The position numbers were made by a program, and so were the translations under genes. A model generated the notes under the pieces. It saw nothing but the letters and a program-made list of their open reading frames with translations. It did no database searches and had not been told where the DNA came from. A stretch of 55,896 nt of DNA from an uncultured delta proteobacterium. GTDB lineage: Bacteria; Desulfobacterota; WTBG01; CAIYCZ01; CAIRTM01. Where the stretch lies: NCBI GenBank assembly GCA_903881505.1, contig CAIRTM010000051.1, positions 1-55,896 on the forward strand. The letters are read 5' to 3'. Positions 7,236 to 11,925 of this stretch are shown piece after piece (the stretch's first letter is position 1; every line of letters starts with the position of its first letter).

Positions 7236-7871
7236 TCAGGATGTGAGGTTTTTTATTAATTTTATGACAATGTGCTGACACAAGACAGCAATATCTTCGG
7301 CGCAGAGAAAATTCTCGGCGCCGGCATCAAAAAGAATCCCGGCTTCAGGGGCGAATTCCGCATCACCTTTCCACAGGCAGCAAATAATGTCAAGCCGGGG
7401 CAATGCGGGTATGCGCACGGCACAGTCGCCGAAGCCGGCGAGTTCTCCCCCAAGCGGTGACGCGGCTGAGCCCAGGCTGCCGGGCGAGCTGCCGAATGCC
7501 TTGACAAGCGGCTGAATGCAGCGCCGCTCGAATGCAGGCGCATACACGGCCCCGTCACGCAAGCGGCGGTAATTGATAAGCGTATGCTGCAGCCGGGCCC
7601 GGGCGCTGTTGGCGAGATAGTGCATGATGAGAATCTGCTCCCAGGCCGGAACTTGTTCTCCGGCATATGCCGTCCTGAAGCACGCCTGCGGCAAGGTAAT
7701 ATAAACAGGCATGTTTAAAAATGCAAGACGGATTGTGCGCTCGTCCACCCCTGACCGGGCCAATACGGCGCCGCCTCCGGAGCAGCAGGCAGCCATGTCG
7801 CTGGCGAGCAGTGCCTGTCGCGCGCGCTGCAGCGCTTCACGATAGGCAGCTTGGAATGTGTTTTCGCGCAC
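7236..7871 (-). CDS. DUF3786 domain protein
   Basis: A 211-residue cytoplasmic protein of the DUF3786 family, which I know from Deltaproteobacteria and clostridial anaerobes and whose function is not established. Recognisable family features are EQILIMHYL near the middle, followed by the Tyr/Arg-rich NYRRLRDG, and the C-terminal LDIICCLWKGDAEFAPEAGILFD motif region split around residues 160-183, then CAEDIAVLCQHIV. The start is most likely the GTG at 7871, which overlaps the stop of the preceding gene in TAGTG, implying translational coupling; a longer reading from 7934 would run through the neighbour's coding end. It sits between a zinc-ribbon/EIIA fusion and a glycosyltransferase. Confidence 0.8.
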   Translation of the reverse strand: MRENTFQAAYREALQRARQALLASDMAACCSGGGAVLARSGVDERTIRLAFLNMPVYITLPQACFRTAYAGEQVPAWEQILIMHYLANSARARLQHTLINYRRLRDGAVYAPAFERRCIQPLVKAFGSSPGSLGSAASPLGGELAGFGDCAVRIPALPRLDIICCLWKGDAEFAPEAGILFDAGAENFLCAEDIAVLCQHIVIKLIKNLTS

Positions 7872-8707
7872 TATGGAATGGTTTTCTTGGTGAGTTGGCT
7901 GAGCAGTTTCCACATTTTGTCCTGCGCTGCGCATTCGAGCAGTTTCGCACGGCTGTCGGCCTCGCGCAGCGATTCCATCAGGCCGGCAATGAGCTGCAGG
8001 TAAAAAGCGCTGGCTGCCAGCGGAATAACGATAAAGAAAATAATTTTCGTCAGCCTGTTCTTGGGTGCTCCGAACTGCAGGCCCTGCTTTTTAAGGCCGG
8101 CGGCAAAAATCAGGCCGCCGCCTTCAACGCCGCGCACGTGCGGAAACGCCAGCCCGTGTTCGATCGCGGTCGGCACTACCGACTCGCGGCTGATAGCGGC
8201 CGCAAGCAGGGTTTCGGGCTTCTCAACGAAGCCCTCGGCCGCCATCAGGTTGATCATCTCCTCGAGCGCTTCATCGCGGGTTTTCGCCTCAAGCTGTGGC
8301 AGCATCAGGCGGCTTGAAGAAAAGCGCGCGATTCCGGGAGAGGGTTTTTCATTGATGGCCCGTATGCGCTTGAGCTGCCGGGGCAGGGCGTCGCGGTAAA
8401 ACAGAATACGCGTGCAGCGCGGGCACTGGATCAGTTTCGCGCCGACCTGCACCTCGTAGGCCAGAATCGTCGGCACGGACATGCCGCAACCCGAACAGGT
8501 ACCGCCCGACATGGGAACCACGGCCGTGGCATAGTGGTTTAAAAGATTCGTGAATGTCCTGCGGATATCCTCGGGCAGGTCCCGGCTCAGGGCGGCAATG
8601 TTTTTTTCAAGGATCTCAAGATGTGTTTCGGCGGTAAGGGCTTTTTGCTCCTGCAGGGTAAAATTGAGATCCTGCAGCTGAATAAGCGCTGTGATAATAT
8701 GTTTCAT
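7871..8707 (-). CDS. Zinc-ribbon protein fused to a PTS EIIA (fructose-type) domain
   Basis: A 278-residue protein with two parts. Residues 1-115 resemble the C4 zinc-ribbon family with a helical coiled-coil front: four cysteines occur as CSGC (71, 74) and CPRC (95, 98). Residues 130-275 form a type-2 PTS EIIA domain, with the phospho-accepting His190 in HGLAFPHVRG and the helix-strand pattern after it (GAPKNRLTKIIFFIVIP). EIIA domains receive phosphate from HPr in sugar or nitrogen-related phosphotransfer systems; here no EIIB or EIIC is nearby, so a regulatory role is more likely than transport. The ATG at 8707 has a CGGAG site; the reading frame could extend 17 codons further. Its end overlaps the DUF3786 start. 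Confidence 0.82.
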   Translation of the reverse strand: MKHIITALIQLQDLNFTLQEQKALTAETHLEILEKNIAALSRDLPEDIRRTFTNLLNHYATAVVPMSGGTCSGCGMSVPTILAYEVQVGAKLIQCPRCTRILFYRDALPRQLKRIRAINEKPSPGIARFSSSRLMLPQLEAKTRDEALEEMINLMAAEGFVEKPETLLAAAISRESVVPTAIEHGLAFPHVRGVEGGGLIFAAGLKKQGLQFGAPKNRLTKIIFFIVIPLAASAFYLQLIAGLMESLREADSRAKLLECAAQDKMWKLLSQLTKKTIP

Positions 8708-8896
8708 TGAAGCGTCTCCGGATAGTGTATGGTGCAGCGTATTTATCGGTTGGCACATGCCGGACCTTGTTTTAAAATAAAGCAGAAGCGCAATTTTAAC
8801 AACTGAAAATTTGGTTCAGGGGTCTTTTTTTAGGCAACGGACTCGTGTTCGGCATTGTAAAGACAGCATATCGTTCTTTGAACAGGGAGTTATTGT

Positions 8897-9907
8897 ATGG
8901 ATATACTATTACAGAAGGTTGCGCTCAGCGACATTGATGTCGGCGACCGGATGTTTGTCGTAACCGAAGGCCGGGGCATAGAGGCCCTGCAAAACTCAAT
9001 CGCGGCCTGCGGGCTGTTGCAACCACCATGTCTGTGGCGCCCGCAGGCAGACGCGGCCTTTGTGACCGTCTGCGGCTGTCTGCGCCTGCAGGCAGCGCTC
9101 AATCTCGGGCTTCAGGGAATATGCGCCCGGGTGCTCGATCCGGCAACCCCGCGGGCCGTCCTGCTCGCCTGCGCGCTGCATGATAATCTGGGACACCGGG
9201 TGTTTAACCCGGTAGAAACAGCGCATGCCCTGCAGCGCCTGCTTGCGTGCCTGCCGCGCAACGAGGTTATCGGGCACTGGCTGCCGCTTTTCGGCCGTGC
9301 AGCCTCGGCGCGCACGCTTGAGCGTCTGCTGTGCCTGTGCACGCTCGAGCACGAAGTGCGCGCGGCCCTGATTGCCGGAAGCCTGACCGAGGCAAGCGCG
9401 CTGAGGCTCGGCGCCTATGCGGCTGATGACCGCCGGGCGGTGTTCGCGCTCATGGGGCACCTGCATCTGAGTGCCGGCAAGCAGGCTGAACTGCTCGAGT
9501 GCCTCGAGGACCTTGCCCGCAGGGATGCGGTCGCGCTGCGGGAGGTCGCTGCGGAAGACGATATCCTGCAGGTGTGCAGGGATGAGCGCCGCACCCGTGT
9601 TCAGAAAACCGAGCAAGTCCGCCGCATCCTGCGGCTGCGGCGTTTTCCCCGCCTGAGCGCGGCGGAAGCGCGCTTTGATGCTGCCCTGAAAGAGATGCGC
9701 ATGGGGCCGGGCATACGGATCATGCCCCCTGAGAATTTTGAAGCCCGTGTGTTCCGGGCCGAGATCACCTTCAGTTCGGCCGATGAACTGCGCCGCCATG
9801 CGGGCGGGCTTTTGGATGCGGCCCGGCGCCAGGCATGCGAACGCCTGCTTGCCGTGCCCGGCGAAGACGGGGCCGGCAAGCACAGAACGGAGCCGCAGCG
9901 TGGATAG
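8897..9907 (+). CDS. ParB-like nuclease-fold protein paired with an Spl-family enzyme
   Basis: A 336-residue protein whose first 100 residues read as a ParB/Srx-type domain: VALSDIDVGD, then EALQNSIAACGLLQPPCLW and the GCLRLQAALNLG segment, which sits where ParB proteins have the G-x-x-R motif. The following helical region could contain a helix-turn-helix. The remaining part is unfamiliar. The last codons overlap the GTG start of the radical SAM gene at 9900, so the two are translationally coupled. It is not next to parA or the origin and is unlikely to be the chromosome partition protein; a specific DNA-binding or nucleotide-binding role in the same process as the radical SAM enzyme is my inference. 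A GGGAG site precedes the ATG. Confidence 0.75.
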   Translation: MDILLQKVALSDIDVGDRMFVVTEGRGIEALQNSIAACGLLQPPCLWRPQADAAFVTVCGCLRLQAALNLGLQGICARVLDPATPRAVLLACALHDNLGHRVFNPVETAHALQRLLACLPRNEVIGHWLPLFGRAASARTLERLLCLCTLEHEVRAALIAGSLTEASALRLGAYAADDRRAVFALMGHLHLSAGKQAELLECLEDLARRDAVALREVAAEDDILQVCRDERRTRVQKTEQVRRILRLRRFPRLSAAEARFDAALKEMRMGPGIRIMPPENFEARVFRAEITFSSADELRRHAGGLLDAARRQACERLLAVPGEDGAGKHRTEPQRG

Positions 9908-11039
9908 ACCGTTTCGACCGGATACAATTTTTGTCGAACAGGCGGTTGAATCCTATCCGCTGACCGGGTCAGTTCTTGAGCGCTGCCCGGGCGTGCCGGT
10001 AGTGATGGTGCATGACGCCGCCGCCCTGGTCAAACAATTCCAAGACGACCCTCCCGCTGGGTTCAACGGCAAGCGCAACCTGCTTTTGTGCCGCAACCGA
10101 GGGCGCTTTCTCGAGGCCTGTCCAGGCACCGGCCGCGCCTACCGCTGCTGCCAGTACCTTATCCTCAACACCGGCCTGGGGTGCCCGCTGGCCTGTACGT
10201 ACTGCGTGCTGCAGGCCTATCTGAACAATCCGTTTCTTACCCTGTTCGTCAACCGGGACGATATGCTGCGCGAGCTTGAGCGCAGCGCGCGACTTGCCCC
10301 GGGTCGATTTCTGCGCATCGGCACCGGCGAATACATGGACAGCCTTGCCCTTGAGCACCTGACCGGATTCGTTCCGGCGATTGCGGGCTTTTTCCGGCAG
10401 CGGCCGCATCTCAGGCTTGAACTCAAAACCAAGACAGCGCTCACGGCAAGCCTGCAGGAGCATGATTACAGCGATGTTTTTATCGTCTCCTGGTCGCTGA
10501 ACGCAGAAGCAATCTGCTCCGGCGAAGAGCCGGGCGCGGCAGCGCTTCCGGAGCGGATCATGGCGGCGCGTGATCTGATTGACCGGGGCTACCGGGTGGG
10601 GTTTCATTTTGATCCGCTGATCGCCTTTGACGGCTGGCAGGAGGGCTACCGGGCCACGGTCGAGCTGCTCAAAAAACATATCCCGCCTGAGCGGGTTGCC
10701 TGGATCAGCATCGGGTCGCTGCGCTTCATGCCGCGCCTGAAGCATATCGCGCAGACGGCCTGCGCGAGCACGGCTATCTACACCGGCGAATTTGTGACCG
10801 GGCTTGACGGTAAAATGCGTTACCTGCAGGAAATCCGGCTCGAATTGTATGCCCGGCTGGTGGGCTGGCTGCGGGAATACGGCCCTGATATCTACCTGTA
10901 TTTCTGCATGGAAAGCCCGTATGTCTGGGAGCGCATCATGGGAGCGGCCCCTTCTTCCAACTGGGAGCTGAAGCGCATTCTTGATTGCAGCATTTCAGGG
11001 TGCCCCCGGGAAACGTGCGCTGAGAATGGCCATGGCTGA
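9900..11039 (+). CDS. Spore photoproduct lyase family radical SAM protein
   Basis: A 379-residue radical SAM protein. The cluster motif is CPLACTYC (Cys95, Cys99, Cys102), and the upstream RFLEACPGTGRAYRCCQYLI resembles the stretch before the cluster in the Spl family. Later blocks GYRVGFHFDPLIAFDGWQEGY also match the family. Spore photoproduct lyase splits the UV-induced 5-thyminyl-5,6-dihydrothymine dimer. However, the position that in the Bacillus enzyme carries the hydrogen-donating Cys141 (in FEASCTSD before HLTH) here reads FLRIGTGEY before HLTG, so the cysteine is replaced by glycine. This makes a classic lyase reaction doubtful. The GTG at 9900 overlaps the ParB-like stop and has GGAG upstream. 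The next gene overlaps its end. Confidence 0.85.
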   Translation: MDRPFRPDTIFVEQAVESYPLTGSVLERCPGVPVVMVHDAAALVKQFQDDPPAGFNGKRNLLLCRNRGRFLEACPGTGRAYRCCQYLILNTGLGCPLACTYCVLQAYLNNPFLTLFVNRDDMLRELERSARLAPGRFLRIGTGEYMDSLALEHLTGFVPAIAGFFRQRPHLRLELKTKTALTASLQEHDYSDVFIVSWSLNAEAICSGEEPGAAALPERIMAARDLIDRGYRVGFHFDPLIAFDGWQEGYRATVELLKKHIPPERVAWISIGSLRFMPRLKHIAQTACASTAIYTGEFVTGLDGKMRYLQEIRLELYARLVGWLREYGPDIYLYFCMESPYVWERIMGAAPSSNWELKRILDCSISGCPRETCAENGHG

Positions 11040-11925
11040 GCGCTCATTGATCGTCAATGCCGATGATTACAATACGAACCCAGAGCGCAATCGGGGTATT
11101 ATTGAGGCTGCGCAGAAGGGTATTGTAACAAGCGCAAGCGCATTGACCAATACGGCCGGACTTGACAGCGCGCTTGCTGCGCTTTCGCAGGAACTTGGGC
11201 CGCATATCGGTGTCCACCTTAACCTTACCAGCGGCCGCCCGCTCATGCAGGGCGTTCACTCCCTTACCGGGGAGGAGGGTGACTTTCTGACAAAGGCCTC
11301 TGTCTGGAGCAGGGCCCTGCGGCGCTGCTATAACCCAGATGAACTCAGGCGGGAATGGAGCGCCCAGATCGAAGCATTCTGCCGCAGCGGGCTTCACCCC
11401 GATCATCTTGACGGCAACAATCACCTGCATATATTTCCGGGCTGCGTCCGCATATGCGCTGAGCTTGCAGTGCGTTTTAACATCCGTTGCGTCCGGCTGC
11501 CGCTGGAGCCGCTGCGTGCGCCCGGGCTGTGCTGCCGCAGCGGATTGAAGCGTTTTTTTATTGCTGTGCTGGCCGTGCGCGCGCGCAGCGTGTTTCGCGC
11601 GTTCGGCCTGTGCATGCCGAACAGGATGTTCGGAATAAGCTTCCCGGCTGCAGGCGATACCGAATCGCTGTGCCGTTTCCTGAAAGCGCTGCCGCCCGGT
11701 ACAACTGAACTCATGTGCCATCCGGGTTACCCCTCACCCGGAATGCCGGGCTTTTCCGGCGCCGGACGCGAACAGGAACTGCTCGCACTGACCAGTCCGG
11801 CTGTGAGCGCGGCACTCGTCAAGCAGCACATCAGGCTGGTTTCCTTCAGCGATATCGCTGATGTTCAGTATAAGGGGCCGGCTGACCCGGTCGCCGTGCA
11901 CAGGCAGTGTGCCGGCGAAAAATAA
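11032..11925 (+). CDS. YdjC/ChbG-like carbohydrate deacetylase
   Basis: A 297-residue member of the YdjC/ChbG family, metal-dependent deacetylases acting on N-acetylated sugars such as chitooligosaccharides. The N-terminal metal-binding aspartates are in SLIVNADDYN (residues 11-12), GVHLNLTSGRPL is a family block, and the histidines are in HPDHLDGNNHLHIFP. TELMCHPGYP near the C-terminus is the expected third motif. The start is uncertain: ATG codons at 11026 and 11032 both overlap the end of the Spl-like gene, pointing to coupling. The substrate may be a hopanoid-, lipid- or polysaccharide-linked amino sugar; nothing in the sequence decides this. Confidence 0.88.
   Translation: MAERSLIVNADDYNTNPERNRGIIEAAQKGIVTSASALTNTAGLDSALAALSQELGPHIGVHLNLTSGRPLMQGVHSLTGEEGDFLTKASVWSRALRRCYNPDELRREWSAQIEAFCRSGLHPDHLDGNNHLHIFPGCVRICAELAVRFNIRCVRLPLEPLRAPGLCCRSGLKRFFIAVLAVRARSVFRAFGLCMPNRMFGISFPAAGDTESLCRFLKALPPGTTELMCHPGYPSPGMPGFSGAGREQELLALTSPAVSAALVKQHIRLVSFSDIADVQYKGPADPVAVHRQCAGEK

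Follow-up and report, generated by a model that had tools for sequence, protein, structure and literature searches.

The locus

The DNA analysed here (the window) is 55,896 nucleotides long. It represents contig C51 of a genome that comprises 3.16 Mb and is split into 149 contigs. It carries a gene for a ParB-like protein, from here on called the partner, and directly downstream of it a gene for a radical SAM protein similar to spore photoproduct lyase (SPL). The features on which this study is based are the following.

8897 to 9907, plus strand: ParB-like partner gene P0001, 336 amino acids, with a ParB-type N-terminal part and a helical (HTH-like) part followed by a C-terminal domain in which R[YF]PxL and PPxFEG-like motifs occur
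9419 to 9850 (approximate), plus strand: C-terminal half of the partner, about what family f63 retains alone
9900 to 11,039, plus strand: SPL-like radical SAM gene P0003, 379 amino acids, GTG start at 9900, stop codon at 11,037 to 11,039
10,119 to 10,121, plus strand: codon of Cys74 of the SPL-like enzyme, aligned with residue 76 of GtSPL
10,182 to 10,205, plus strand: CxxxCxxC radical SAM cluster motif (C95, C99, C102), then Val103 where GtSPL has Tyr98
10,320 to 10,331, plus strand: GTGE motif, amino acids 141 to 144, with Glu144 aligned with the donor Cys140 of GtSPL
10,905 to 10,913, plus strand: Cys-Met-Glu motif, amino acids 336 to 338, right behind the last predicted strand, found in all of 70 family members
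11,026 to 11,925: YdjC-like open reading frame P0002 (E = 1.4e-59), overlapping the end of the SPL-like gene

A sequence-only reading of this DNA had stated that the two genes P0001 and P0003 overlap, and they do so by 8 nt. The same reading had named a YdjC-like deacetylase gene behind the SPL-like gene. This gene is indeed present, but it does not belong to the unit since it adjoins the SPL-like gene in only one of 44 loci (flanks of at most 1.5 kb, some shortened by the end of the contig), namely in the window itself; we consider it an incidental neighbour. On the other side, at 7871 to 8758 of the window, a gene with zinc-ribbon-like and PTS IIA-like parts (domain names assigned by reading) is found on the minus strand, divergent from the ParB-like gene. 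Such a neighbour of the ParB-like gene recurs in three further loci (L045, L046 and L050).

An SPL fold with an altered active site

The assignment of P0003 to the Spl family of radical SAM proteins holds. The Pfam model SPL (PF20903), which names a wider family, is matched with E = 8.6e-25 and 87.8 bits at a cut-off of 27, and GtSPL is matched by sequence with E = 2.2e-17. The predicted structure (pLDDT 93.4) aligns with GtSPL (4rh0) over 324 residues with a Z-score of 35.3 and an rmsd of 2.2, so that the SPL fold is present; the second-best fold match is MqnE with a Z-score of 15.0. The narrower models give a different picture. TIGR04070, the model for spore photoproduct lyase, yields 85 bits where the cut-off is 400, and TIGR03886 yields 55 bits where it is 437.55. 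The alignment with known Spl proteins and the lyase-like family, suggested as a check in the sequence-only reading, places the enzyme in a separate subfamily. In the tree, the sequences with the GTGE motif form one group with a support of 94/86, separate from the group of classical SPL and TIGR03886 (100/97), and the clostridial-type and TcmP-associated sequences fall on the GTGE side. The family score supports that the enzyme is not a spore photoproduct lyase, and on this score and the active-site residues we rejected an ordinary enzyme of this kind.

We aligned 70 family members, the window's own among them, and compared the active-site residues. The cysteines of the CxxxCxxC motif, which had been read as an intact cluster, are kept in all 70 sequences. 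Also invariant are Y101, R139, G141-T142-G143, D147, S148, K176, K178, H236 and D238 as well as E297, K305, R307, C336, M337 and E338, and Cys83 is found in 67 of the sequences. The stretch FLRIGTGEY...HLTG is found in the enzyme as quoted earlier; the residue at the place of the Bacillus donor cysteine, however, is not the glycine that had been reported. The column of GtSPL Cys140 (Bs 141) contains Glu144, which belongs to a conserved R-x-GTGE-x-x-DS motif and is glutamate in 69 sequences and glutamine in one. Because of this conservation the glutamate is, as judged from the alignment, a trait of the family and no local change. The GTGE motif is similar to GGE, the motif by which other radical SAM enzymes bind SAM. 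The relay tyrosine (Bs Y99, Gt Y98) corresponds to residue 103, which is isoleucine in 41, valine in 25, phenylalanine in 3 and alanine in 1 of the sequences and never tyrosine.

The enzyme had been described as lacking the hydrogen-donor cysteine. This is correct for the Bacillus position, which is replaced throughout the family, but a lack of any donor cysteine is not established because Cys74, conserved in 69 of the 70 sequences, aligns with position 76 of GtSPL. This placement was obtained in two alignments, one of five chains and one with wild-type GtSPL; in the GtSPL sequence search only the 4rh0 chain, which is the C140A/S76C mutant and thus carries an engineered cysteine at 76, puts Cys74 at this position, and the two other chains printed do not. 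In the alignment with wild-type GtSPL, Fusobacterium and two gut phage records have the clostridial-type cysteine four columns away from Cys74. SPL from Clostridium acetobutylicum is reported to use as donor a Cys74 in its own numbering, which is sited elsewhere than C141 (PMC5368176). A second [4Fe-4S] cluster formed by C74, C83, C84 and C336 is a candidate idea which we considered. The enzyme of this genome ends with a cysteine-rich tail (C363, C368 and C373; 10,986 to 11,036 of the window) which is absent from the other aligned sequences.

The ParB-like partner

Structure comparison reveals the ParB N-terminal fold in the partner, with KorB (Z-score 12.6, 197 residues, rmsd 5.4), PadC (Z-score 12.3, 98 residues, rmsd 2.2) and Noc (Z-score 11.4) as matches. 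The Pfam domain ParB_N is detected in 35 of 42 partner sequences at E = 0.01; the window's own protein scores 18.3 bits, which is below the cut-off of 26.3. None of the 42 sequences has the catalytic glutamate of the GERR motif. The phosphate-site residue Arg63 is found in all 42 and Asn97 in 40 of them, and by our own alignment we take these two residues to correspond to R104 and N136 of Caulobacter ParB. A study on the Caulobacter protein reports that the mutants R104A and N136A bind CTP weakly or not at all and that E102A is deficient in hydrolysis (PMC8367383). Since the arginine and the asparagine are kept and the glutamate is absent, CTP-type binding by the partner appears plausible and hydrolysis doubtful.

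In seven genomes of family f63 the partner match covers model positions 152–312 only. The whole open reading frame encodes just 183–200 amino acids in three of these genomes, and in G161 the partner gene is located between a glycosyltransferase gene and the enzyme gene with no space for the N-terminal half. The C-terminal half therefore is the common core of the partner and the ParB domain is not, which makes this domain a weaker argument for DNA chemistry. DNA binding by the partner is no more than putative, as the region of the recognition helix is variable and the N-terminal half is dispensable in f63. A search of the window for a parS-like site gave no match at up to three mismatches, with 0.09 matches expected by chance. 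A second, weaker ParB match is found elsewhere in this genome, on contig C77.

Co-occurrence of enzyme and partner

In 395 genomes of the phylum the enzyme was detected with E ≤ 1e-40 in 227 and with weaker similarity in 18; the other 150 gave no match. The partner was counted at a profile E ≤ 1e-25, the thresholds being picked after the values had been seen. On this basis the partner is present in 204 of the 227 enzyme-positive genomes versus 7 of the 168 others, and the Fisher tests for this and the other co-occurrences ignore kinship. A permissive re-search was applied to 22 of the 23 enzyme-positive genomes without a partner, with the 168 others still counted at the first threshold, and in 17 of the 22 it detected a divergent partner gene right next to the enzyme gene. 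This raises the total to 221 of 227, or to 222 with a partial in-frame fusion in G011, where 65 partner model positions precede the enzyme (E = 1.6e-5; the start codon is putative). No partner was found in G127, G155, G180 and G198, which are 80–86% complete; G009, with the enzyme at a contig end, was left out of the re-search. Four genomes have a partner and no enzyme match, and in these the partner lies at a contig end with the downstream side, on which the enzyme would be expected, cut off. Two further genomes (G123 and G319) have the partner and a weak enzyme match.

The same association is visible in the gene order. In 44 loci which were collected via the SPL-like protein alone (the window included, with flanks of at most 1.5 kb, some ended by the contig), the ParB-like gene adjoins the SPL-like gene in 35 cases. 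Among 80 named loci, which overlap with the 44 by one contig and possibly by more, partner and enzyme adjoin in 24; in the loci from Desulfobulbaceae the enzyme adjoins ssb instead. Long open reading frames around the enzyme in G118, G197, G059, G151 and G037 were inspected as possible ParB fusions, and this was ruled out as no partner match lies in the frame of the enzyme. The co-occurrence of ParB-like and Spl-like genes, which the sequence-only reading had proposed to check, is thus confirmed, and in our sample of the phylum the coupling of enzyme and partner is strong and nearly obligate. Eight genomes from other named phyla contain a strong partner match in six cases and a strong match to the glycosyltransferase described below in four; two of the eight (G398 and G399) have N-terminal ParB matches only, and G398, G400, G401 and G403 are without a strong glycosyltransferase.

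A glycosyltransferase associated with the pair

A GT2 glycosyltransferase is likewise associated with the pair. Using a profile of 30 sequences (A5) and regarding matches with E ≤ 1e-85 as strong, we found it in 210 of the 227 enzyme-positive genomes versus 12 of the 168 others. Other GT2 matches in the phylum are mostly weaker than 1e-70, and in between lie G010 (3e-80) and G057 (6e-84). In the genome analysed here the gene is located outside the window, at 8220–9047 of contig C55. In 26 of the 80 named loci the glycosyltransferase gene is found on the upstream side of the enzyme gene or of the partner gene. In several lineages all three genes stand side by side, and the arrangement varies, as glycosyltransferase and partner, glycosyltransferase and enzyme, or partner and enzyme may adjoin. 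In G310 the glycosyltransferase is fused in frame to the C-terminal half of the partner, and in G406, which belongs to another phylum, glycosyltransferase and partner adjoin without the enzyme. The GT2 domain is found in all 30 sequences, and the nearest solved structure by sequence profile is chondroitin synthase. GT2 enzymes act mostly on glycans or lipids.

The three genes are also absent together: in nine of the families that contain the enzyme, one or more genomes with a completeness of 90% or above have none of them. There are exceptions to this pattern. A strong glycosyltransferase match is missing from 17 of the 227 enzyme-positive genomes, and the f6 genomes G017, G056 and G091 have enzyme and partner and no strong glycosyltransferase. 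Conversely, the glycosyltransferase occurs without the pair in G062, G240 and G359 (94–98% complete) and in G002 and G126 (76%), while G252 and G328 have it together with a weak enzyme match (E = 2e-38 and 9e-38) and no strong partner. Overall, the co-occurrence of the glycosyltransferase with the enzyme–partner pair is strong.

Other neighbours and the question of mobility

Of 20 loci fetched for the partner, eight have purC immediately next to the ParB-like gene, often overlapping it (L160, L161, L165, L168, L170, L171, L173 and L159). In 20 loci of the GT2 gene, ispH and dusB are its neighbours in five each. In L235, L241, L242, L250 and L251 ispH, by its length partly fused to S1, and often dusB are found directly upstream of the GT2 gene. 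Near the enzyme, ssb is found in 27 and dnaJ in 31 of the 80 named loci. The operon genes ssb, dnaJ, purC, dusB, ispH and leuD differ between lineages and were discarded as clues to the function; the gene neighbours are not consistently nucleic-acid genes. On viewing the loci by eye we did not find a precursor peptide or an envelope operon consistently beside the genes.

Relatives of P0003 were searched for in collections of mobile elements. In viral_contigs ten pattern matches were obtained, none of which was confirmed; two phage records and 16 plasmid records were matched, none of the 16 covering 80% of the query. A mobile or viral origin is not supported within these collections. PADLOC gave no match to P0003 and for P0001 only one with E = 0.055, and on this search we rejected a defence system.

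Comparison with known systems

Spore photoproduct lyase (TIGR04070, PF20903) and the enzyme have in common the fold over 324 residues, the CxxxCxxC motif, the tyrosine before the third cluster cysteine, K178 and D147. They differ in that the enzyme has a glutamate in the GTGE motif at the position of the donor cysteine and valine or isoleucine instead of the relay tyrosine, and it further possesses a loop insertion with C83 and C84, a C-terminal extension with the Cys-Met-Glu motif and a dedicated partner. The TIGR03886 proteins (spore photoproduct lyase family protein) belong to the same superfamily; their branch groups with classical SPL and apart from the enzyme. A further comparison is with SPL-like radical SAM proteins linked to TcmP, which share GE-x-x-D[SP], GKxRY and the C-terminal LC[MK]E with the enzyme and also have a partner of their own. 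Their partner, however, is TcmP and not a ParB-like protein; it is adjacent in L217 (2606–4958) and fused in L219 (1014–3107), and was not found in L216 and L218. Because TcmP stands beside or is fused to the enzyme in this other branch, it seems that SPL-like enzymes are accompanied by partners dedicated to them.

The partner shares its fold with ParB, Noc, KorB and PadC and differs from them by the missing GERR glutamate, by its own C-terminal domain and by the loss of the N-terminal half in f63. In Roseomonas haemaphysalidis (L184, 405–2526) two tandem SPL-family genes are found right behind the plasmid gene repB, which presumably encodes a ParB relative. In the tree one of the two falls with the TIGR03886 branch of Deinococcus and the other with the cyanobacterial branch near classical SPL. 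DpdB, which goes with DpdA, is reported as a ParB-like protein that serves the 7-deazaguanine modification of DNA in the Dpd systems (PMC12839542). There a ParB-like protein serves a nucleic-acid-modifying enzyme, yet the class of this enzyme differs, and we liken the two systems by role and not by a comparison for homology. ParBc genes are also reported to occur near CmoX (PMC12783734). Our searches of open-access papers did not find a description of the enzyme–partner pair or of the trio.

Discussion

As judged from sequence, the enzyme represents a new subfamily within the SPL superfamily, one that has a partner of its own and is associated with a glycosyltransferase. The sequence-only reading had suggested that the pair may perform another DNA or nucleotide chemistry, which is possible. 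We tentatively propose, with less than even confidence, that the enzyme carries out a radical SAM modification which depends on the partner and is coupled to glycosylation; a nucleic acid or nucleotide would be a first guess at the substrate. Enzyme and partner would form the core of a conserved multi-protein system which is vertically inherited, and the specific GT2 glycosyltransferase would act in one pathway with them, being encoded next to the pair in some lineages and elsewhere in others. The enzyme would bind SAM via the CxxxCxxC cluster and the GTGE motif, generate the 5′-deoxyadenosyl radical and abstract a hydrogen from a substrate which the C-terminal domain of the partner would help to hold. 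Either Cys74 or Cys336 may then give the hydrogen atom back in place of the Bacillus cysteine. The glycosyltransferase would decorate the substrate or the product, and the ParB-type domain, where present, could be a nucleotide-binding (CTP-like) docking module or a DNA-binding module. Our choice of a nucleic acid or nucleotide as substrate follows from the action of SPL on DNA and from the ParB-like proteins that are found with DNA-modifying enzymes in other systems; it is the weakest step of our explanation. Unlikely, in our opinion, is a more specific version in which a phylum-wide, vertically inherited hypermodification of nucleic acids is carried out by an SPL-derived enzyme, with the partner, in many cases equipped with a ParB-type nucleotide switch, as guide, a DNA or RNA base being remodelled and then glycosylated by the GT2 enzyme.

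The main rival to our proposal assumes a substrate in the cell envelope, be it a glycan, lipid, peptide or protein, for the enzyme, the partner and the glycosyltransferase, with the partner as an adaptor whose ParB domain serves only for nucleotide binding or regulation. The GT2 domain in all 30 sequences and the nearest profile match to chondroitin synthase, the dispensable ParB domain in f63 and the position of the glycosyltransferase gene next to ispH in five of 20 loci are in line with this, whereas the closest fold of the enzyme is the DNA-directed SPL and viewing the loci by eye gave no consistent envelope operon or precursor peptide beside the genes. We regard it as somewhat less likely than our own proposal. 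We would give a small chance to a DNA-lesion repair enzyme which is targeted by a ParB-type clamp, uses Cys74 as hydrogen donor and has nothing to do with the glycosyltransferase. Such an enzyme would suit the SPL fold, the conservation of Cys74 at the place of GtSPL residue 76, the kept Arg63 and Asn97 of the partner and the presence of ssb in about a third of the named loci, but the relay tyrosine is replaced in all 70 sequences, the glycosyltransferase co-occurs with the pair, the recognition-helix region varies and the window is devoid of a parS-like site within three mismatches.

It is very improbable that the enzyme is a drifted ordinary spore photoproduct lyase of the clostridial type beside which the ParB-like gene is a chance operon neighbour. 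Cys74 at an alternative position would fit; the score of 85 bits where 400 are required, the absent relay tyrosine, the GTGE motif and the co-occurrence with the partner speak against it. Also improbable, if less so, is that the genes co-occur because they are conserved core genes with a shared ancestry rather than members of one pathway. The genes are mostly vertically inherited and the Fisher tests are uncorrected for kinship, but this explanation has to contend with the joint absence of all three genes from near-complete genomes in nine families, with adjacency in differing arrangements and with the in-frame fusions in G310 and, partially, in G011.

Should the three genes belong to one pathway, a large part of this phylum of anaerobes would carry a radical enzyme system that is covered by no family model or paper we found. 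The SPL fold would then have been turned from DNA repair to a partner-dependent chemistry with another route for the hydrogen atom. The system would also offer biochemists a handful of proteins that can be tested in organisms amenable to culture, with Desulfobulbus elongatus and Desulfacinum infernum among the named genomes.
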